Shown here: in pieces, positions 4,947-22,746 of the stretch
Position numbering within the stretch: the first letter of the stretch is position 1
How the letters are laid out: every line of letters begins with the position of its first letter
Program-made: the position numbers and the translations under genes
Source of the DNA: a virus
IMG/VR virus record: IMGVR_UViG_3300046002_005207
Coordinates: 1 to 24,157 of that record
Direction: 5' to 3' (one strand)
Length of the DNA stretch: 24,157 nucleotides
The notes under the pieces: model-generated
Database searches by the model: none
What the model was told of the DNA's origin: nothing
What the model saw: only the letters and a program-made list of their open reading frames with translations

Positions 4947-6947
4947 TTATAAATAAGTTCCATCAGGTTGTAATGTATAAATTTTATTACCAATTTTCAT
5001 TGATTGAGGTTGTTCAGGTGGTAATCCTTGAGAAGTATCAGCTATAATTTTAGCGTTTTCGGGTGTATTAATAAAGTTTCCTTGTGAATCAAAAAGTTGA
5101 CTTGCTACAAAAGCAGGAACTCCTTTCCATAAAGCACCTTGAACGGCATTTTGATAGTTACCTAGATTTGATAATGCTTTAGCTTCTGCTTTATCTTTTT
5201 TAGATTGCAATTCTTTAAAGGCATCCATCTTGTATCCAATAATATCTTTATTCATTGAATTTTGTAATTTCATTATCTCTAATGTAATTTCTCTTTCACT
5301 CTTATTAAGGTCAGAATTTATTTTTATTACATTGTCATCAAAGTCAGATTGTAGTTTATTAATACTATCATTAAGATTCATATTAATCTCTCTTACACCT
5401 AAGTCATAGTTACTCTTTAATTCTGCTCTATCGGCTTGGTATTTTTCATCAAGTTGAGCTAGGGCATAACCTGCTGCTCCTGATGTATCTAAAGCACCTA
5501 GTTTAGCAAGTAATCCCATCATTGAACTCTTACTATTAATACGATTTATTTCCATCTCTGAATCAGCTTTATCAAATTCTGCTTTTGACTTATCAATCAT
5601 ATACTGTGCCTTTTCTCTTTCAGATGTTTTCATATTTGCCATCTTTTCAGTTTCAAGTTCTATGCGTTTCTCAGCTTCAATTCTATTCTTTTCTTCCATT
5701 CCAATAGTATCTCTATCGCCTTTTATCATTTCAATTTGTTGTCTTGTAAAGTTCTGTTCAGTTAATGCTTGTTCAGTCATTAGTTTATCCATTTCTTTAT
5801 TACCTGTATTAAATTTAGGTATATTCAAAAGACTGTCAAGATATTCTTGTGTTGTTTGAGGTGGTTTAATTCCACTCACCTCTGTATTTGCATTATTTTG
5901 TACCTTTGATGTAATTGAAGAAGGGGTTATTCCATACTTTGCTAGAGAGTCTACATTTGCTTTAAATGCTGTATCATTCTTGTAGGCATCTGTAAAGGCA
6001 TCTGCTGAATTAAATCCTTTAGCAATACCATCTGTCCAAGTATCAATTCTTGTTGAATACAATGAACCACTATTTTTGTCGCTAAACCAAGGGTCAGCTT
6101 GTAAGTTCTTTGCATCAGAATTAACTTGCATTATTGCTTTGTTAGCACTATCAATACCACCATAATCGTTCTTAGGTGTAGTTGGGGTTGGTGTGTAACT
6201 TGTTTTTGAAACAGTACTTGAACCATCAGCATTAGGTGTTGTTGTAGTTGAAGATGAATCTTTTATAGATAAATCTTTCATATAATCTGTATTGCCAAAA
6301 ACATTCTTAGGGTCAATAGGTGTATCACTTGCTATATCTTGTGCATTCGTAATTGTTTGTGGAGAACCATCAGGATTCAATGTTTGTCCACCTGATGTTG
6401 AGCTGTAGTTACCTTGTGCGTCTAAGGCAGTTGCCTTATTCATTGTACTAACTACTGGAGCAGTTTTTTGTGGAATTATATTTGAAACTTTCTGATTCTT
6501 TCCACCAACACTTGCCCCTGAGAAAGTAGTTGCTCCATAACCTGATTTAACTGGAATATTTCCTGAAAGATTAAATATATCTGAAGATTTAACACCTGTA
6601 ATTGGGTCAGTTCTGTAATCTAATGTTTTTGCTTGTAGGGCATTTGCTGATTGACTATTCTTAGCAGCACTATTAATTGCATCTTTAATTGTTTTACCAA
6701 CGTTGTCAAAAAATGAACCTATCTTACTTGTCTTCTTTTGTGGAAGACTTGGTGTTGGTTTACCTATTGTTGCTCCACCTCCTTTCATTGGGGTAGGTGT
6801 AGAGGATGTTTTAGAAGTACCACTTGTACCTCCTTTTGCTTGTGCTTTAACTGCTGTAAGAACAGGTGTAAACTTCTTCACCGTCTGTATTGGTGTAAGT
6901 GGTTTTGGTGGTATTACTACTTTTTTGGGTGCTGCTTTTGGTGCCAT
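4947..6947 (-). CDS. Low-complexity and coiled-coil virion protein (666 aa)
   Basis: Residues 1-260 are low complexity, rich in Thr, Ser, Pro, Gly and Lys, starting MAPKAAPKKVVIPPKPLTP. Residues about 385-475 and 500-590 are long heptad-like helices (for example EEKNRIEAEKRIELETEKM), so the protein is probably an elongated coiled coil. A short hydrophobic segment (WKGVPAFVASQLF, 608-620) precedes a Pro/Gln tail. It sits directly upstream of the two other large virion-type genes with gaps of nine and five bases. Size, composition and position fit an inner-core or ejection protein of a podophage. No enzymatic domain is visible, and no specific family is claimed. Confidence 0.78.
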   Translation of the reverse strand: MAPKAAPKKVVIPPKPLTPIQTVKKFTPVLTAVKAQAKGGTSGTSKTSSTPTPMKGGGATIGKPTPSLPQKKTSKIGSFFDNVGKTIKDAINSAAKNSQSANALQAKTLDYRTDPITGVKSSDIFNLSGNIPVKSGYGATTFSGASVGGKNQKVSNIIPQKTAPVVSTMNKATALDAQGNYSSTSGGQTLNPDGSPQTITNAQDIASDTPIDPKNVFGNTDYMKDLSIKDSSSTTTTPNADGSSTVSKTSYTPTPTTPKNDYGGIDSANKAIMQVNSDAKNLQADPWFSDKNSGSLYSTRIDTWTDGIAKGFNSADAFTDAYKNDTAFKANVDSLAKYGITPSSITSKVQNNANTEVSGIKPPQTTQEYLDSLLNIPKFNTGNKEMDKLMTEQALTEQNFTRQQIEMIKGDRDTIGMEEKNRIEAEKRIELETEKMANMKTSEREKAQYMIDKSKAEFDKADSEMEINRINSKSSMMGLLAKLGALDTSGAAGYALAQLDEKYQADRAELKSNYDLGVREINMNLNDSINKLQSDFDDNVIKINSDLNKSEREITLEIMKLQNSMNKDIIGYKMDAFKELQSKKDKAEAKALSNLGNYQNAVQGALWKGVPAFVASQLFDSQGNFINTPENAKIIADTSQGLPPEQPQSMKIGNKIYTLQPDGTYL

Positions 6948-7410: not shown

Positions 7411-9243
7411 TTAAATTTGTGTTATTATTTTCCCAATTGTAATATTTCCAGCATTTCCTGATTTGCCAGTTGTTGGACTTCCACCTGTTCCTGCCGAACC
7501 TCCATTCCCACCTGTATTATAAATTAATCCAGTATTTATAACTGTTCCAAGAACTAATATTGTAATATCTGAACCATTACTACCATTGCCACCATTACCT
7601 CCAACCACACCATTTCCTCCATTTCCTCCATTTCCTCCTTGCCCATTTATAGTACCAGTAAAAGACAATGTACTTGCACCTAAGATAAGTAAACCAATTC
7701 CTCCATTTAAACTATGCCCTCCATTCCCTCCATTGCCTGAACTTACTGACGCACCACCATTTCCTCCATTTGTACCACCATTGCCACCATTACCACCATT
7801 ACCAGTACCTATTCCAGCTCCTCCATTTCCACCATTACCAGTTTTTCCATTTCCTCCATTCCCTCCGTGTCCAGCAGATGCACTTAAAGATTTACCTTGT
7901 CCACCATTTCCACCATTTACATATCCATCTCCACCATTACCTCCATACGAACGACCAGTAGATGTAACATTACCTCCATCTCCTCCATTCCCTCCACTAC
8001 CTCCTGTTGACCCTGAATTACCCCCATTCCCCCCGTGTCCTCCATCTCCTGTACCAGAACCTCCAATACCACCATTTCCTCCATTGCCAGTTAAGTATCC
8101 ACCACCACCTGAACCTCCACTTCCACCAACATTATTATAAGATTGTCCTGAAGCCCCAGCTCCTCCATCTCCACCATTATTACCTGAAGCAGCAGTACCA
8201 TTAGTACCTGCAAGTCCATATCCAGCAGAACCTTGAGCGCCACCACCACCTCCTCCTCCACCTGTAGTAGAACCTCCACCAACTCCATTCGACCCAGCAT
8301 TAGAACTTACACCATTGATTCCACCAGCTCCTCCTGCTCCATTTCCAGCAGAAGTAGAAGTACCACCAGCTCCACCTGAACCTCCAGTTCCACTTGTTAT
8401 TGAAGTAGCTACACCTCCGTTATTAGAATCTTGTGAAATACCTGTTGAACCACCTCTTATTCTACCGTGTAATGTCTGTAAATCAATTACTGAACTTGTA
8501 TTACCATATCTTAATTCAATAGTTCCTGCAATAGTAATTGCTCCAGTTGCGTTTAATAACGCTCCACCCGTTCCAGTAAAAGCAAGTTTTGCTCCTGATG
8601 AAACATTTATTGTTGTAAAATTATAAATTTGTCCTGCATTTAGAACAGTAGTACCTGATGTTATGTTTAAAGCTCCATCAACACCTGACCCTCCAATGAG
8701 TCCAAATCCTTGCAAAAATCCATTACTATCAATTATTTTATTTGTAACTCCATTTAATATAGACCCAGATAGTGTTGTAAATTTTGGGTCATTATTACCT
8801 ACTGCAATAGGGTCTGATGCACTTACTGGTGCTACACTTAATTTAGTATTACCATATACACTCTCTGTAGCCTTTAAATTTCCTGCAGAAATTGACAGAT
8901 TTGATATTATTGCATTTTGAGCAGCTATTTCTGAAGTCAAATAAGAATCTACATCACTCCAATATTCAGCAGTAATATTCATACGTATTGGCTCTCCTGT
9001 CGTATGTGTTTGTTCTGTTGTTCCACCCACTCCTCTTGCACTAATTGTGATATAATCACCATTTCCATCTGTTCCTACCCCTGAATAAGCCACTATTTCA
9101 CGTAATGTAGCATTATTAGGAGAAACTACTAACCAACCTGATGTTGGTGTAGGCTTTACTGTAACATAAAAAGTACCAGTTCCAGTAGACCAGTCTTGTA
9201 GAAGTGTTGTTTTATAAAAGTTTTGTAAGATTTTAATTGCCAT
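7411..9243 (-). CDS. Polyglycine-repeat tail or head fibre (610 aa)
   Basis: There are three regions. Residues 1-97 are a docking module also found in the 148-aa neighbour. Residues about 98-275 are beta-rich with Gly/Ser/Thr strands ([31 protein letters not shown]). Residues about 276-600 are dominated by GGNGGNGG and related GGX repeats, with two non-repetitive interruptions near 515-535 and 558-578. GGX arrays of this kind form polyglycine-II sandwiches in the phage S16 gp38 adhesin, so host receptor binding is the likely role; the homology is structural analogy, not demonstrated. The gene has its own consensus promoter ending seven bases before the ATG, predicting a leaderless or one-base-leader mRNA. 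Confidence 0.88.
7444..8418 (-). repeat. GGX (polyglycine) coding repeat array
   Basis: The minus strand encodes about 325 residues rich in GGN, GGA, GGS and GGD triplets, seen on the plus strand as repeated ccaccatt-, cctccatt- and ccacca-type units. The array is imperfect and interrupted twice by ordinary beta-strand sequence. Such arrays can change length by slippage or recombination, which in an adhesin would alter surface loops. It also produces long proline-rich shadow frames on the plus strand. Confidence 0.9.
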
Positions 9244-9250
9244 TGTTTCT

Positions 9251-9279
9251 ATTATACCATATTATTTATAATTTGTCAA
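9251..9279 (-). promoter_or_regulatory. Consensus promoter for the polyglycine fibre gene
   Basis: TTGACA (9274-9279) and TATAAT (9251-9256) on the minus strand are separated by exactly 17 bp, with TGG before the -10 (extended -10). Transcription should start at about 9243-9244. That is the A of the fibre ATG or the base before it, so the mRNA would be leaderless. Confidence 0.9.
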
Positions 9280-9281
9280 GA

Positions 9282-11096
9282 TTATTTAATCGACACTATT
9301 GCATCAGGTGCAAATGTGTCCTTTTCTTGCTTCATACCCATTAAAGCGAACTGTGCTATTGTAAATGTTTCACCTAATCCTGCATTTGATAATCCAATGT
9401 TAATTGATTGTGCCTTTGAAAGGAAGGAAATACGTCTTTTAATGAAAGGTGATGATGTAATAGTTTGCCCATAAGAGTCAGCAACAAGGGATTCACCGAA
9501 GTCTGTTTCACCTAATGCACCCAACTCATCTTCTAATCCTTGTCCAAGATAAAAGTTCTTTGTCTTAGCTGTTCGAACATCTGATTTATCTGAATAAATT
9601 GTTATTGTAATTTTACCTGTCAAGTTCTTAAACATTAAATCAAGATAACGGTAAATATTAAATAGGTTGAAGTCTTTATCTTCCACCCTCTTAAATACTA
9701 CCTCAGAAGAAATAGCTGTGCCATTGTCATTTAATAAAGATTCATCCCACTTAAGAACAACGAATGGTGTTACATTTTTAACAGAATAAATTGTATTGTC
9801 AATAGCAATCATTTCTGATGTTTTTGCCTTATCTCTTGAAACAAATTTAGTCCAACTATTCTTGTAAAGGGTATGACAAACAAACATCAAATCATTTGCT
9901 GTTGTTGATGTAATCGGTACTGATAAATAGAATTTTCTATTATTGTAGAAAACATTTACTAATGAATAATAAGATGGATTAATTGTGTATAGTGTATCTT
10001 TAATAGGTTCTGATATAACAGAAGTATTAATTCCCATCACACCTGTTTGTTGGTCTTTAAATCCAAATGCTCTTACTTCTCTACCTGTAAAAAACCATAA
10101 ATCATTCTCCACCCAAGATATTGCTGTTCGTGAACAAGCTCCATAATTATTTGATTGTAGTTCTTGTTTTGGGGCAAACAATCCTGTAACAACTTCCACC
10201 ATTGTTACTTTCCAAATTGATTCTTTCTTAAACACTAAAAGATAACCATAATAGTTTTCTAATCCTGTTACAACATCAACACCTAATGGTCTAAACACAT
10301 CTTGTGATTGAAATGATGTAAATGATAATCCTGCCGATGAAATTGTATGTACTCCTGATTGTGAACCTGATGTATTTATACTAACACCTCCTGGTGTTGC
10401 TGAAAGTTCAAAAGAAGAAACTGTTAAGTTAGTTGCTGAAACATAGTATGTAGTTCCTGCCACAATTCCTGTAGGTAATGCACCCGTAGTAGTAAATGTA
10501 ACACCAACACCTGCTGTAAGTCCGTGATTTGTTTTTGTTACAACCCCTGGGGTTGCGATTGAGATTGTACAAGTTCCTGATACGAAACTACTATTACCAA
10601 ATCCTGAATAGTATACTGATAAAGGTTCTGCTGTTACACCTGATACGAATAATCTGCTCTCAAATACTTCAAGAATATTTCCTTTAGGAGCTGAGGCATA
10701 ATCTGTGAAAGTAGTTCCATCATAAGTGAAAAGAGAATCTACTGCGTTACAAGCATACAATACGTTATCATAAACTACATATCCAAATTTCGCACCTGCT
10801 GTTATTGTTTTGGTAGTGTCTTCCCATAACGAATTTGTAGTATTGTATAATTGTATTTTAGTTCCTTTTGCTCGTATTAGTTTAGATGTTCCATCTTTCT
10901 TCTTATAATTAAATATAGAATGTATTGCAGTAGTTTCTGTTGCTCCAAATAAAGAAAAGCCTGTATCCTTTGAAAGATAACCAGTTTCAGAAAAATTCAT
11001 ATTGATAGGTACACTTCTTCCTGCACTATCATCGACATCTATGGCTTCCACCATATTGTCCTGTATTATTGAAAATTTAGATTTTTTTAATGGCAT
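9282..11096 (-). CDS. Tail tubular protein B-like beta-propeller/nozzle protein (604 aa)
   Basis: The protein consists of repeated beta-strand blades with aromatic and Gly turns (GYVVYDNVLYACNAVDSLFTYDG, RLFVSGV, YYGYLLVFKKESIWKV, NDLWFFTGREVRAFG). This is typical of podophage nozzle proteins related to T7 gp12. Between blades, residues about 174-253 form an inserted module with the pattern TKTNHGLTAGVGVTFTTTGALPTG...YYVS...FELSATPGG, which recurs as a mobile beta-domain in phage tail proteins. It lies two bases after the adaptor-like gene, matching the usual tubular A - tubular B order. The nozzle role is inferred from fold-like pattern, length and synteny. Confidence 0.82.
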   Translation of the reverse strand: MPLKKSKFSIIQDNMVEAIDVDDSAGRSVPINMNFSETGYLSKDTGFSLFGATETTAIHSIFNYKKKDGTSKLIRAKGTKIQLYNTTNSLWEDTTKTITAGAKFGYVVYDNVLYACNAVDSLFTYDGTTFTDYASAPKGNILEVFESRLFVSGVTAEPLSVYYSGFGNSSFVSGTCTISIATPGVVTKTNHGLTAGVGVTFTTTGALPTGIVAGTTYYVSATNLTVSSFELSATPGGVSINTSGSQSGVHTISSAGLSFTSFQSQDVFRPLGVDVVTGLENYYGYLLVFKKESIWKVTMVEVVTGLFAPKQELQSNNYGACSRTAISWVENDLWFFTGREVRAFGFKDQQTGVMGINTSVISEPIKDTLYTINPSYYSLVNVFYNNRKFYLSVPITSTTANDLMFVCHTLYKNSWTKFVSRDKAKTSEMIAIDNTIYSVKNVTPFVVLKWDESLLNDNGTAISSEVVFKRVEDKDFNLFNIYRYLDLMFKNLTGKITITIYSDKSDVRTAKTKNFYLGQGLEDELGALGETDFGESLVADSYGQTITSSPFIKRRISFLSKAQSINIGLSNAGLGETFTIAQFALMGMKQEKDTFAPDAIVSIK

Positions 11097-16880: not shown

Positions 16881-18167
16881 TTACATGTTCCATTCAGGAT
16901 AAAGAGGTTGTATTCCACCAGTTTGAGTAGCATTTGTATAGATATTTTGACGAATTGGTGTTAGTGGAATATCCCATACTGCAAGGGCTAAAGACATAAT
17001 TCTGTCATCGTGTTTACCATCAGGAACGCATATTTTTGTTCCTCCATTCTCATTTAACTCATAAGTCATTGAAATTAGCTCATCAATTAATACTTCATCA
17101 TCAGGAATTTTAATTTTGTCTTGTTCGAATAGAATTTGTAAGTTTTTAAGTAGGTCAGTTCGTGAGGTTTTGTTAAATCTGAATGGGGTTATATTCATTC
17201 CCCTTGAATTTAAGTCATCAAAGACAGGTTCGCCTACACCTGTAGAGTCAATAACGATTCTACCTCGATTATAACGCAAATAAGCGTTTTCTATACGTGC
17301 TTTCTGTAAATTGTAGTCCATTTGGTTAAAAGAGTCTTGTTTTTGAAGGTGAAAATCGTTAAGATTGAATGGTGAAATCACAGTATAGTCGTTATATTTT
17401 GCGAGGTCAACCCCTATTTGGAAGAAAGCCATATCTTTTGGTTTATAGTCTTCTAATTTGTATATGTTTTCACGTACCCTACGAAAGAATCCAAGACCAT
17501 TATCAAGGAATTTACAATAATACTCCTGTTGGAATAAGTCTTGTGGCATTTCAAGACGTGCTTCTTCAAGTGCTTCTTTTGAAAGTGCCTTTGTGTCTTC
17601 AACTGTCAAGACTTGACAGAACCAATTTTTATTATTCTTTACATCTTGCATCAATTCGAATGCGTGGTTGACACCTCGGGGTGTCATAATGAATATTGCA
17701 AATCCACCATTTTCTCTAAGAATAGGAGAAATCAAGTTCCACACATCGGGTTTCATTAGGGAATACTCTGAGAAGACAACACCAACTGGGTTTGTACCAA
17801 CAATACGGTCAATGTTATCAGCACCCACCATTTGCAAAATACTCCCATTGATAAGTTCAATAACCATATCAGATTGGTTGATAGTTTTTACTATTTCTTT
17901 AGGGAAATGTTCTAAAAACTTAAAGCCATCTTTATCTGCTCCTGTCCAAATGACCTTTTTTGCCTGACTATAAGTTGGCAAAAAATAATAATATGTCCCT
18001 TTACGTTCCATCATCTTCTTTGGAAGATTTGCAAAGATTGTTTTATCTTTTCCTGAACGTCTATGTGCCACCCAAAACATTCTTTTAATACCTGAATCCC
18101 ACGCTTTAAGAATTGGTATTTGGTAGCTCCTCGCTTTGAATTTGTACGGTAGTGTTATCTCTGACAT
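16881..18167 (-). CDS. terL: Large terminase subunit, ATPase and nuclease (428 aa)
   Basis: The Walker A-like motif is AHRRSGKDKT (34-43). The Walker B region is VGVVFSEY (128-135) with the catalytic Glu, followed by the coupling motif MTPRG (161-165). The RNase H-like nuclease domain begins with GVDLAKYNDY (Asp254), then VIDSTGVGEP (Asp307) and HDDRIMSLALA (Asp387/388), the three expected acidic positions. It is complete at 428 aa, near the lower end for the family. It packages DNA into proheads through the portal. It overlaps the small-subunit gene by 62 bp in a different frame, and the start lacks a Shine-Dalgarno (context TATTACAAA). Confidence 0.95.
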   Translation of the reverse strand: MSEITLPYKFKARSYQIPILKAWDSGIKRMFWVAHRRSGKDKTIFANLPKKMMERKGTYYYFLPTYSQAKKVIWTGADKDGFKFLEHFPKEIVKTINQSDMVIELINGSILQMVGADNIDRIVGTNPVGVVFSEYSLMKPDVWNLISPILRENGGFAIFIMTPRGVNHAFELMQDVKNNKNWFCQVLTVEDTKALSKEALEEARLEMPQDLFQQEYYCKFLDNGLGFFRRVRENIYKLEDYKPKDMAFFQIGVDLAKYNDYTVISPFNLNDFHLQKQDSFNQMDYNLQKARIENAYLRYNRGRIVIDSTGVGEPVFDDLNSRGMNITPFRFNKTSRTDLLKNLQILFEQDKIKIPDDEVLIDELISMTYELNENGGTKICVPDGKHDDRIMSLALAVWDIPLTPIRQNIYTNATQTGGIQPLYPEWNM

Positions 18168-18798
18168 TTTGTAATATTTGATTTTCTATTAAATTTTGAT
18201 TGTCTTCGACCACCTTATTTTCAATTTCTATTGGGTCAGCATAAGATATACTATTTATCTTTATTTCTGATTCCATCTTACCTCCTATTTCTTGTTTTGT
18301 AGAATAGCCTTCATCTTTGCCTAGAGTAGTAACAATTGTTTTAGATATATCAGCTACAACACGTAAAACATCTTTATCGATTTCCTCCTCCTCACTACCA
18401 TCTTCTCTTAGTTTCATTTTTGAATAAGATAGATTAAGCATTCTTCCTAGATTTCTTTCTGCTTTAGAAAACATACTTGCTCTTAATAAACGTTTCTTCC
18501 TTTCTTTAAACCATTTAAAGTTTCCCATATTAAGGGCAGTATTCTTTGAATAACCTGCTGCAATTCCTGACTGAACAATATTTGGTTTACCACTTCTAAA
18601 AGATTTAATATAAAAATCCCAAGCTATTTGTTGTCTAGGGTCAACGTTCCTACCATTACTTCTTTGCTTAGGTGGCACTAGTCCTTTTTCAATATAACTA
18701 CCTTCATCATCTGCCTCCATTTCTTCCTCTACTTCTTCAGATGGAATAATTGTAGACATTATTCCATCATCTTCATTTTCTTCGGTTTCATTATTCAT
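18106..18798 (-). CDS. terS: Small terminase subunit (230 aa)
   Basis: An acidic N-terminus is followed by a DNA-binding helix-turn-helix-like region at about 55-105 (QQIAWDFYIKSFRSGKPNIV, then AGYSKNTALNMGNFKWFKER), characteristic of phage small terminases ('A-W-x-x-Y-...-N-x-x-x-S-x-I-x-A-G-Y-S'). A helical segment probably mediates oligomerisation, and an Asn/Glu-rich tail follows. It immediately precedes and overlaps the large subunit. Its ATG overlaps the stop of the upstream small gene. Role: recognition of the packaging site and handing of DNA to the large subunit, by family knowledge. Confidence 0.87.
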   Translation of the reverse strand: MNNETEENEDDGIMSTIIPSEEVEEEMEADDEGSYIEKGLVPPKQRSNGRNVDPRQQIAWDFYIKSFRSGKPNIVQSGIAAGYSKNTALNMGNFKWFKERKKRLLRASMFSKAERNLGRMLNLSYSKMKLREDGSEEEEIDKDVLRVVADISKTIVTTLGKDEGYSTKQEIGGKMESEIKINSISYADPIEIENKVVEDNQNLIENQILQNVRDNTTVQIQSEELPNTNS

Positions 18799-19075
18799 TT
18801 GTTTTCTTTTCCTTTTCCTTCTCGACTTTTAAGCCAATTGCTTGGTCAATAATAGCAATAATATGTTTCTTAAAATCACTATTGGAAGATAGAGGCATCT
18901 GTGCTTCTACAACTGTATCCTTTAACTTAAGTGTTAAGAATAAGATAGCAGCACTACCTTCCTTTCCATCCTTACCTACAGGAACATCCTTAAGAACAAA
19001 TCCTATAGTATCGACCTTTCCTTTGTAATGCTCACCAAACGAAAACAACTCACTCTTTTGTTTTTTTGTCATCAT
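18791..19075 (-). CDS. Small first gene of the packaging operon, unknown function (94 aa)
   Basis: The protein is MMTKKQKSELFSFGEHYKG... with a beta-rich middle (AAILFLTLKLKDTVVEAQMPL), a helix (FKKHIIAIIDQAIGL) and a Lys/Glu tail. No family is recognised. An in-frame ATG at 19081 exists, but the promoter -10 ends at 19082. Transcription should begin at about 19075, exactly at the ATG chosen here, giving a leaderless mRNA; the 19081 ATG would not be transcribed. Its stop overlaps the start of the small terminase gene, suggesting coupling and a packaging or regulatory role. Confidence 0.75.
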   Translation of the reverse strand: MMTKKQKSELFSFGEHYKGKVDTIGFVLKDVPVGKDGKEGSAAILFLTLKLKDTVVEAQMPLSSNSDFKKHIIAIIDQAIGLKVEKEKEKKTNE

Positions 19076-19081
19076 TGGCAT

Positions 19082-19110
19082 ATTATAACATAATATATTT
19101 AATTTGTCAA
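19082..19110 (-). promoter_or_regulatory. Main late promoter (terminase operon), leaderless
   Basis: TTGACA (19105-19110), 17 bp, TATAAT (19082-19087) on the minus strand, with TGT before the -10. The distance from the -10 to the ATG at 19075 is six bases, so the predicted start of transcription coincides with the start codon. It stands back to back with the plus promoter at 19132-19160. Confidence 0.9.
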
Positions 19111-19131: not shown

Positions 19132-19160
19132 TTGACTTTTGTTTTTAAATATGCTATAAT
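19132..19160 (+). promoter_or_regulatory. Divergent plus-strand promoter driving the structured RNA
   Basis: TTGACT (19132-19137), exactly 17 bp, TATAAT (19155-19160), with TGC before the -10 (extended). Predicted start is near 19167. It faces away from the terminase promoter, with only 21 bp between the two -35 boxes, so binding of a regulator here could coordinate both directions. Confidence 0.9.
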
Positions 19161-19166
19161 GGAGGT

Positions 19167-19535
19167 CTGGAGATTAGGTAGGGCGAACTTGTAAAGCCTA
19201 ACTCTGGTTGCCAATTAAATTTACAAGACTTGTTATATCTGATGTGTTAGGCAGCATCCTAACGTGCTTTATACCATAACAGGAGTTAATCAAACGTTCC
19301 ATAGACTTCCTGGCGTTTGAAACACACATAGGTCTTTCCTTTGAAAGTTGCCTATGATAGTGGGAAGAAAGAATTAACCTAGAGAAAAGGGATTACTTAA
19401 TTCAATGGCTAAGCTATACTTTTAGGGCTTTTATACCCTCTATGTGCATTACCCATAACGGGGGCAAAGCCTAAAAGTTAAGGTAACATTAATACTAATT
19501 ACACTTGTTTAAGATTTGATTGGGGCTAGAACTAA
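19167..19535 (+). ncRNA. Candidate structured ncRNA or long structured 5' leader (about 370 nt)
   Basis: No convincing ORF is present from the promoter to the RNase H-like ATG. Perfect or near-perfect helices are:
- CTTGTAAA 19188-19195 with TTTACAAG 19220-19227;
- GTTAGG 19246-19251 with CCTAAC 19258-19263, competing with GCCTAAC 19196-19202;
- CAAACG 19291-19296 with CGTTTG 19314-19319;
- CATAGG 19327-19332 with CCTATG 19351-19356, enclosing CTTTC/GAAAG;
- GAATTAA 19371-19377 with TTAATTC 19397-19403;
- a 13-bp helix ACTTTTAG/CTAAAAGT plus GCTTT/AAAGC (19419-19432 with 19465-19477), enclosing CCCTC/GGGGG and TATG/CATA.
It does not match tmRNA, RNase P RNA or a group I intron as far as I can see, and no U-tract terminator is present before the ORF. 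Confidence 0.7.
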
Positions 19536-19961
19536 ATGAAATATTATACAGACGGTTTTACAAAACTTAAGAATCCTTCTCCTTTAGGTGGAGGCTATAC
19601 GATAGTAGATGAGAATAATACTGTAATAACAGTAGAAAACATTAACAAAGTAGGATTTACAAACAATGAAGCTGAACTTCTTGGTGTTTACAATTGTTTA
19701 AAGATATGCAACAAGAAAGATATTATATCTACTGACTCAATGAATACAATCGCTTGGGTTAGAGCAAAGAAACTAAAGAAAGTAGCTAGACAAGACTTAA
19801 TTGAAATAATAAAAGAGTGTAAACAACTCGTAGAAAATAAATCTATTAACCTTATGTGGGAGGGTAGAAATTTTAATCTTGCAGGTATACACAATGAAAC
19901 AAAAGAATTAGATACATTTTCTTTGTTTTGTCAAGGGGTAAGTTTTCCAAAAAGTGAGTAG
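19536..19961 (+). CDS. RNase HI-fold protein, fourth catalytic residue apparently lost (141 aa)
   Basis: The N-terminal strand YTDGF carries Asp6. TNNEAELLGVYNCL supplies Glu47, matching the TNNxxEL signature. ISTDSMNTIAWV supplies Asp67. These correspond to the first three catalytic acids of RNase HI. The final motif, usually N-x-x-A-D, reads RNFNLAGIHNE, with Gly117 where the fourth Asp is expected. Length is close to a bare RNase HI domain. It is the only plus-strand ORF directly below the structured RNA and may be cotranscribed with it. Removal of RNA primers or R-loops is the family role; with the altered site it may bind RNA-DNA hybrids or use another acid. Confidence 0.85.
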   Translation: MKYYTDGFTKLKNPSPLGGGYTIVDENNTVITVENINKVGFTNNEAELLGVYNCLKICNKKDIISTDSMNTIAWVRAKKLKKVARQDLIEIIKECKQLVENKSINLMWEGRNFNLAGIHNETKELDTFSLFCQGVSFPKSE

Positions 19962-20014
19962 CGGTTTTTTGACCACTAACGTCTTTGCGGCGGTGCCCAC
20001 CAACCCCCCCCCCG

Positions 20015-20349
20015 TCACACAATAACATGTTTGTCAACAACACAGCAAGACAATATTGTCAAGTATAATAAATATATCATATACGATATAATGCCAACAC
20101 CTAGCACCCTAACACCCTCGAGGGTCTCCCTTGCAAGCCCCCGACCATTAATAGCCTATAAGTTCTCACACAATAACATTTCTGTCAAGGTGTTGATATC
20201 TTACTATTGACATGTTTAGCAAAGTTGTGTTGCAATATTAGGAGGCTCACACCATTTGCAGTCTGTCAATGGATGTCGCACAATATTTTTGCTCTCGCCA
20301 AACAATCCTTGTTTTACACCTCTTTTTCTAGCTAACATGTCGCACAATA
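20015..20349. repeat. Four iteron-like TCRCACAATA repeats
   Basis: Copies begin at 20015 (TCACACAATA), 20166 (TCACACAATA), 20276 (TCGCACAATA) and 20340 (TCGCACAATA), all in the same orientation. The first two extend further (CACACAATAACAT, then TGTCAA a few bases on), and the last two share GTCGCACAATATT. A related ACACAATAA overlaps the -35 of the promoter at 22847. Same-orientation short repeats are typical of iterons or activator sites. Confidence 0.6.
20072..20091. repeat. Operator-like inverted repeat, copy 1
   Basis: ATATATCA-TATA-CGATATAA, matching the fuller copy at 22131-22150 in 14 of 16 arm positions. It lies in the non-coding block just after a TATAAT. A dimeric repressor or partition-type protein is the likely kind of ligand. 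Confidence 0.5.
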
Positions 20350-20371
20350 TTATTTTCTTATAATATATTTA

Positions 20372-20391
20372 ATATACCATATATGATATAA
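20372..20391. repeat. Operator-like inverted repeat, copy 2
   Basis: ATATACCA-TATA-TGATATAA, same length and spacing as the copies at 20072 and 22131. It lies about 60 bp upstream of the promoter at 20433-20461. Confidence 0.5.
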
Positions 20392-20432
20392 ACATTACAC
20401 CACTAACACCATTATAATGCAAGGCTTTTTAC

Positions 20433-20461
20433 TTGCTATCTTTTTATTATTCGTATATACT
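20433..20461 (+). promoter_or_regulatory. Probable promoter of the first small-gene cluster
   Basis: TTGCTA (20433-20438), 17 bp, TATACT (20456-20461). It is weaker than the other promoters. The inverted repeat ATATAC-TATAT-GTATAT covers the -10, so a repressor bound there could block it. Predicted leader to the ATG at 20513 is about 45 nt. A short GCAAG/CTTGC hairpin (20419-20436) overlaps its -35. Confidence 0.5.
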
Positions 20462-20512
20462 ATATGTATATCAATTAGTCATTGGTATACATTATAAATT
20501 ATAAATAACATT

Positions 20513-22245: not shown

Positions 22246-22746
22246 TTAAAATTTAGAACCCTTAGTAATATTTTCCTTAAACCACAGAGGTTGTAGATTA
22301 GTATAATGACAAGCTTGGTTATATTCTTTTTGTTTAGTTAAATCAAACAAAGATAGGGGTTTTACATGGTCTATATTCCAACCAGTTTTAGATAGATTTT
22401 TCCAATTCATACCAGTTTTAAATTTTTTTTCTAAATAAGTTTTTAATTCAGGTATTGTGCATCCAAGACTATCAATTACCTTACCTTTAGTTGAATTTAA
22501 TTTAATTGCTTGTCTTAAACCACTTCTAACTTGTATTTGTAATCTAAATTGTTTATTATTATGATATTTATTAAGAGTGTATTTATTTTGATAGTTAATA
22601 AATTTATTACTACGATGATATTTAGCACATATTAAATTATGACAATCTTTACAATAAGCAAATTGTCCATCTTTCCTACGATTATCTTTATAAAACATTG
22701 ATAAATCACGAAACATTAAGCACTTCAAACATTGTTTATTATTCAT
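22246..22746 (-). CDS. HNH endonuclease with N-terminal zinc finger (166 aa)
   Basis: Residues 6-35 carry CLKC and CKDC (Cys6/9 and Cys32/35), a zinc finger often found before phage HNH domains. A basic linker follows. The HNH core is WNIDHVKPLSLFDL (Asp126, His127), then HYTNLQPLWFKENITKGSK with Asn150, Leu-Gln-Pro-Leu-Trp and Asn159, the usual N-L-Q-x-L end of the motif. It is the only minus-strand gene in the right arm and has its own leaderless promoter, suggesting a free-standing homing-type insertion. A role in DNA packaging or host DNA cleavage is an alternative. Confidence 0.9.
   Translation of the reverse strand: MNNKQCLKCLMFRDLSMFYKDNRRKDGQFAYCKDCHNLICAKYHRSNKFINYQNKYTLNKYHNNKQFRLQIQVRSGLRQAIKLNSTKGKVIDSLGCTIPELKTYLEKKFKTGMNWKNLSKTGWNIDHVKPLSLFDLTKQKEYNQACHYTNLQPLWFKENITKGSKF

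Follow-up and report, generated by a model that had tools for sequence, protein, structure and literature searches.

A structured RNA of about 225 nt that is encoded upstream of an RNase HI-family gene was found in a phage genome, and it is almost certainly real and previously undescribed. The window, i.e. the whole stretch of DNA that was analysed, corresponds to an IMG/VR virus record and is 24,157 bases long. A homologue of the RNA is present ahead of the RNase H gene of a second virus contig (L007), where the helices are largely maintained, in many pairs by changes on both strands. From these sequence comparisons, the RNA and the RNase H appear to be co-inherited and probably work as a pair.

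Organization of the RNA locus

The initial annotation had placed a strong promoter ahead of an ORF-free stretch, and this arrangement was recovered. The promoter, predicted from its match to 11 of the 12 consensus letters, is of the sigma-70 type and TG-extended (19132-19160, plus strand; TTGACT, 17 nt, TG-TATAAT) and would serve both the RNA and the RNase H gene. A divergent promoter matching 12 of 12 letters (19082-19110, minus strand; TTGACA, 17 nt, TG-TATAAT) is predicted for a small gene at 18791-19081. This small gene stands ahead of the terminase genes, which are located on the minus strand of the window with the terminase large subunit at 16881-18167. Between positions 19161 and 19535, the plus strand contains no ORF of at least 50 aa and is free of stops over 37 codons at most. 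No reading frame is conserved in this region and the insertions and deletions that separate the window from L007 are not multiples of three, in agreement with its earlier description as non-coding. No intrinsic terminator was found in the window between the RNA and the RNase H start, and for this reason a single transcript that starts at the promoter at 19132 would carry the RNA and continue into the RNase H gene.

The conserved core of the RNA extends from 19179 to 19403 on the plus strand, which also carries all the elements described below. It was defined by the covariance-model match to L007 and by covariation, and its limits were set there because the similarity of the 5' flank and of the linker between the window and L007 is no better than that of shuffled sequences. 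Helix A (19188-19227) is made of 8 bp joining 19188-19195 to 19220-19227. All eight pairs are kept in L007, six of them by double change, and the helix is nearly all replaced between the two homologues (CUUGUAAA/UUUACAAG versus CCACAUUA/UAAUGUGG). A further pairing termed PK1 (19182-19198), between GGC at 19182-19184 and GCC at 19196-19198, would turn helix A into an H-type pseudoknot; its letters are identical in L007, without covariation, which is consistent with PK1. Element B (19239-19274) is composed of CUGAUGU, a 6-bp hairpin (19246-19251 with 19258-19263) with the loop CAGCAU, and CUUUAUAC, and three of the six hairpin pairs are by double change. It is followed by helix C (19290-19320), whose 7 bp (19290-19296 with 19314-19320) are all kept, three by double change. 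Helix D (19328-19355) comprises an outer AUAGG/CCUAU and an inner CUUUC/GAAAG stem with five double changes, and is flanked by conserved ACACAC and GAUAGUGGGAA. Finally, element E (19371-19403) displays a 7-bp helix GAAUUAA/UUAAUUC, an inner 3-bp CCU/GGG and the loop AGAGAAAA. A weak candidate for a second pseudoknot, X (19306-19367), would join 19306-19311 to 19362-19367; five of its six pairs are kept in L007 and one change is single-sided.

All the complementary stems listed in the initial annotation were found at 19161-19535, but its estimate of an RNA of about 370 nt has to be reduced to the 225 nt of the core. The bulged 13-bp helix that it had listed does exist (19418-19431 with 19466-19478), but it is specific to the window and falls outside of the conserved RNA, within the linker to the RNase H start (19404-19535), in a 3' third that cannot be aligned with the linker of L007. 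It had also been suggested that GUUAGG at 19246 could act as a switch by pairing alternatively with CCUAAC at 19197. This alternative pairing is absent in L007 (CUUGGA versus GCCGUC) and it is the local hairpin that covaries instead.

No Shine-Dalgarno sequence precedes 25 of the 27 genes of the window (for example those at 7411-9243, 18791-19081 and 22246-22746), and several genes exhibit a TATAAT a few bases before the ATG, which points to leaderless transcripts and an unusual host. The gene at 7411-9243 is predicted to encode a 610-aa protein of the virion region with a long stretch of glycine/asparagine-rich repeats. Downstream of the RNase H gene, a long non-coding stretch (19961-20512) contains a C run, 23-bp direct repeats (TCACACAATAACAT..GTCAA, at 20015 and 20166) and other repeats, and is possibly an origin or a regulatory region.

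Conservation and reach of the RNA

Folding energy by itself does not set the stems of the window apart from chance, the z values being -1.4 for 375 nt, -2.2 for the 370 nt that precede the ATG and -0.5 for the core. The core is considered as a real structured RNA because of its conservation, namely the covariance-model match and the double changes, and not because of its folding energy. The window sequence alone served to build a covariance model (R1), which was searched over the RNase H loci and unrelated controls. It matched only the window and L007 at 5700-5917, the latter with 97.2 bits and an E value of 3.9e-24, while the next matches reached 14.5 bits; over a further 0.97 Mb of other viral loci, no match was obtained at an E value of 0.5 or better. 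In the alignment made by the model, 96% of cells are paired and 19 of the 41 pairs have changed on both sides. None of 500 shuffles contained as many double changes, and 0-1 were left when the partner strand was slid. The three broken pairs are all located in the outer helix of element E, where L007 has an insertion, and this helix is complete in both sequences when placed by hand. The counts were taken from the model-made alignment since a MAFFT alignment of the window with L007 shifts helix A by one base.

Such compensatory changes in the helices point to an RNA structure that is under selection. The initial annotation had proposed to look for covariation among homologues, and the L007 homologue does covary strongly. 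Moreover, identity between the window and L007 amounts to 74% at unpaired positions (99/134) versus 48% at paired ones (39/81). Unpaired positions that are more conserved than paired ones are characteristic of RNAs with a functional core.

The RNase H has relatives in seven other virus contigs (L002, L003, L006, L007, L008, L009 and L023) and in one contig of an Ignavibacteriales MAG (L024). A two-sequence model from the window and L007 (R2) gave no convincing match in the other six virus loci, the best one (10.5 bits, E 0.14) being in L003 outside the leader. Element E was searched as the outer helix, CC..GG and a loop within two changes of AGAGAAAA, a definition drawn from the window and L007 only. 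It is also present in two further leaders, those of L003 and L008, and the 2.43 Mb of viral DNA searched contained it at three unrelated places; its chance of occurrence per leader is about 0.1-0.2%. Element B was searched as CUGAYGU, a hairpin and CUUUAUAC, with two letters relaxed to fit L023. With a hairpin of at least 6 bp, its occurrences in 2.48 Mb were limited to the window, L007 and L023, always ahead of the RNase H. In L002, L006 and L009, the leader is ORF-poor and foldable, and is at most a candidate for a copy of the RNA. As judged from these comparisons, full homology is proven for one pair only, the window and L007, and the wider family rests on single elements.

Leaders fold better than shuffles in L002, L003, L006 and L009 (z -3.6 to -4.2), and little or no better in the window, L007, L008 and L023. 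Folding energy is thus no guide. Pseudoknots drawn by hand in L002, L003, L006, L008, L009 and L023 were discarded, as the search of single leaders performed no better than on shuffles. Of note, the leader RNA is preceded in L002 (4560-4650), L003 (4599-4700) and L023 (5300-5400) by a TATAAT-like box, then by what may be a leaderless ORF of some 30 codons, and by a terminator-like hairpin. This arrangement is absent in the window.

The RNA did not correspond to any known class among the 4227 Rfam families searched, which included GOLLD, ROOL, tmRNA, RNase P, 6S and the group I intron. No match was found in the window at E values up to 5, in line with the impression gained by eye that the RNA is unlike tmRNA, RNase P RNA, 6S RNA and group I introns. 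None was found at E values up to 1 in L006, L007, L008, L009, L023 and L024, and L002 and L003 yielded chance-level matches only. The ARAGORN tRNA/tmRNA gene model found none of these genes. In the open-licence literature, which did not cover a 2017 survey of 224 candidate structured RNAs, no published description of such an RNA was found. In IMG/VR, the DNA pattern ACACACA...TGATAGTGGGAA gave six chance matches in addition to the L007 contig. The pattern TAAA...GACTTGTT...CTGATG occurred in at least 119 stretches and, among the matches listed, all were due to chance except that of the L007 contig. Isolate phages and plasmids yielded nothing related to the RNA, nor any close relative of the RNase H. 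The phylum of the Ignavibacteriales MAG was also surveyed: of 395 genomes, only the MAG itself had the RNase H subfamily and none had a match to R2, a result that shows little by itself. Together with the covariation and the lack of a coding frame, the absence of an Rfam match bears out the original proposal that an RNase H gene is preceded here by a structured phage RNA, or a long leader, of an undescribed kind.

The RNase H and its genomic neighbourhood

The gene that follows the RNA (19536-19961, plus strand) encodes a 141-aa protein of the RNase HI family (PF00075, E 2.7e-8; phrog_531). Its AlphaFold2 model has a pLDDT of 86.7 and the top Foldseek matches are RNases HI of solved structure. 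By profile and predicted fold, the protein is thus identified as an RNase HI, which substantiates the initial assignment of the downstream gene as RNase H-like. Residues D6, E47 and D67 are invariant in the subfamily alignment. The usual C-terminal AD is replaced by AG and, in most rows of the alignment, an acid is found four residues on; the fourth catalytic acid of the D-E-D-D set is uncertain. Compared to the prokaryotic RNases HI ST0753 and the N-terminal domain of Rv2228c, the fold and the family are alike, but the phage subfamily ends with R..NLAG..N[ED] whereas typical RNases HI carry N..AD. In L007, the RNase H frame (6001-6361) is broken near codon 32, be it a real feature or an assembly error, and the RNA upstream is intact. 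The pair may therefore not function in L007, unless the break is an assembly error.

An ORF-poor leader directly precedes the RNase H on the same strand in all eight virus contigs of the subfamily. In L024, an RNase H of the subfamily has coding sequence, not RNA, in front of it. In a whole-contig comparison at E 1e-5, the RNase H was the only protein common to the window and L007, with the reservation that contigs are fragments in which shared genes may be missed, and most other contig pairs had zero to three further common proteins. The window and L007 have terminase and portal proteins that could not be aligned with each other. The gene located after the RNase H also varies: it encodes the portal in L007, the terminase in L009 and RtcB in L023, and in L002 and L003 it is small and conserved. 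Because the contigs otherwise share almost nothing and the following gene varies, the RNA and the RNase H look like one cassette, and this distribution makes a functional pairing of the two likely.

Several neighbouring genes deserve to be mentioned for their own sake. The gene found directly after the RNase H in L023 (6241-7425) codes for an RtcB RNA ligase (PF01139, E 3e-115), which suggests RNA repair or ligation in that gene unit. In L009, a GroEL-like chaperonin gene, recognized by eye, is present at 8950-10545 downstream of the terminase gene of this phage contig. The terminase of L003 (1650-3623) and the helicase of L024 (1174-3495) each appear to hold an intein-like insertion.

Possible roles and comparison with known systems

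The RNA would be a discrete folded unit that acts with the RNase H on phage or host RNA or on RNA-DNA hybrids, and the two would be transferred between unrelated phages as a cassette of two parts. In this cassette, the RNA would be a partner of the RNase H or a substrate matured by the enzyme, and not an ordinary expression switch. We assign a probability of roughly 45% to this reading of a discrete RNA working with the RNase H rather than as a cis leader. It is favoured by three features: the conserved sequence stops 132 nt short of the RNase H start in the window and 75 nt short of it in L007, no expression platform is conserved and Shine-Dalgarno sites are mostly absent. These same features speak against a cis-acting leader of the RNase H mRNA which, as a riboswitch or as an autoregulatory target for binding or cleavage by the RNase H, would set read-through, stability or translation: the linker is not conserved and the window linker holds no terminator. 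Such a leader is nonetheless a serious possibility, only slightly less probable than the discrete RNA. The RNA is always 5' of the gene and in the same orientation, and the window has no terminator between the two, which is exactly the layout expected of a leader; the strong conservation of the unpaired letters also fits a ligand-binding core. In addition, a segment before the start codon of the window can pair with the 3' strand of helix A (14 of 300 shuffles are as good), but the competing pairing before the start codon of L007 is no better than shuffles (227 of 300).

Other explanations are much less probable. A strong promoter, a structured transcript and an RNase H lie side by side, as would be expected if the transcript hybridised at an origin and were trimmed by the RNase H into a replication primer in the manner of ColE1 RNA II. 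The cumulative GC skew is indeed lowest near the locus in the window and in G002 and G006, but G001, G003 and G004, in which the flanking genes are mostly co-directed, show no turning point there. The skew signal follows gene direction, since the turning point is missing where the flanking genes run the same way, and no sequence is conserved 3' of the core, so that a primer seems quite unlikely. A packaging RNA similar to phi29 pRNA is suggested by the terminase genes that adjoin the locus in the window, L003, L007, L008 and L009. This role appears very improbable, given that L002 and L023 have no terminase neighbours, that the RNase H is the constant neighbour, and that the window and L007 have terminases that cannot be aligned although their RNAs are homologous. 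Finally, a chance fold in an intergenic region would account for a window folding energy hardly below that of shuffles, but it is refuted by the covariation, that is by the match of L007 and its 19 double changes, and its likelihood is next to nil.

The reading of a discrete RNA working with the RNase H can be extended in a more speculative way. The RNA, pseudoknotted, and a dedicated RNase H would bind each other, the RNA directing or restraining the enzyme or being matured by it, and would spread as a cassette that, for instance, attacks or escapes a host process based on RNA or RNA-DNA, retron defence being one example. This extended scheme is on the whole unlikely. If the RNA and the RNase H do bind, they would constitute a new RNA-enzyme module; if they do not, a conserved leader of unusual size would remain, in a virus mostly devoid of Shine-Dalgarno sites. 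To our knowledge, phages have few large structured RNAs and most of the known ones come without a named protein partner. A new RNA family that is apparently co-inherited with one enzyme subfamily would thus offer a direct and testable partner for an orphan RNA.

Among known systems, ColE1 RNA II is also a structured transcript that works with RNase H. ColE1 uses the host enzyme whereas the RNase H described here is phage-encoded, and the GC skew at the RNA locus gives no evidence of an origin. The pRNA of phi29 resembles the present RNA as a phage RNA encoded near packaging genes, which is the case in several contigs. It is shorter than the 225-nt core and belongs to a different type of phage, and the RNA described here is not always found next to the terminase. 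Riboswitches and autoregulatory leaders similarly sit 5' of one gene family and have a conserved unpaired core, but they differ by the conserved expression platform that is missing here together with linker conservation. GOLLD and ROOL are large ornate structured RNAs of phages and prophages, of unknown function and often near tRNA islands, and GOLLD often exceeds 800 nt (PMC12286853). The present RNA departs from both by its 225-nt core, by the lack of a detected tRNA gene and of an Rfam match, and by its constant RNase H neighbour. GOLLD and ROOL, which are structured phage RNAs predicted to fold in a complex way (PMC12286853), come closest in kind to the RNA described here.
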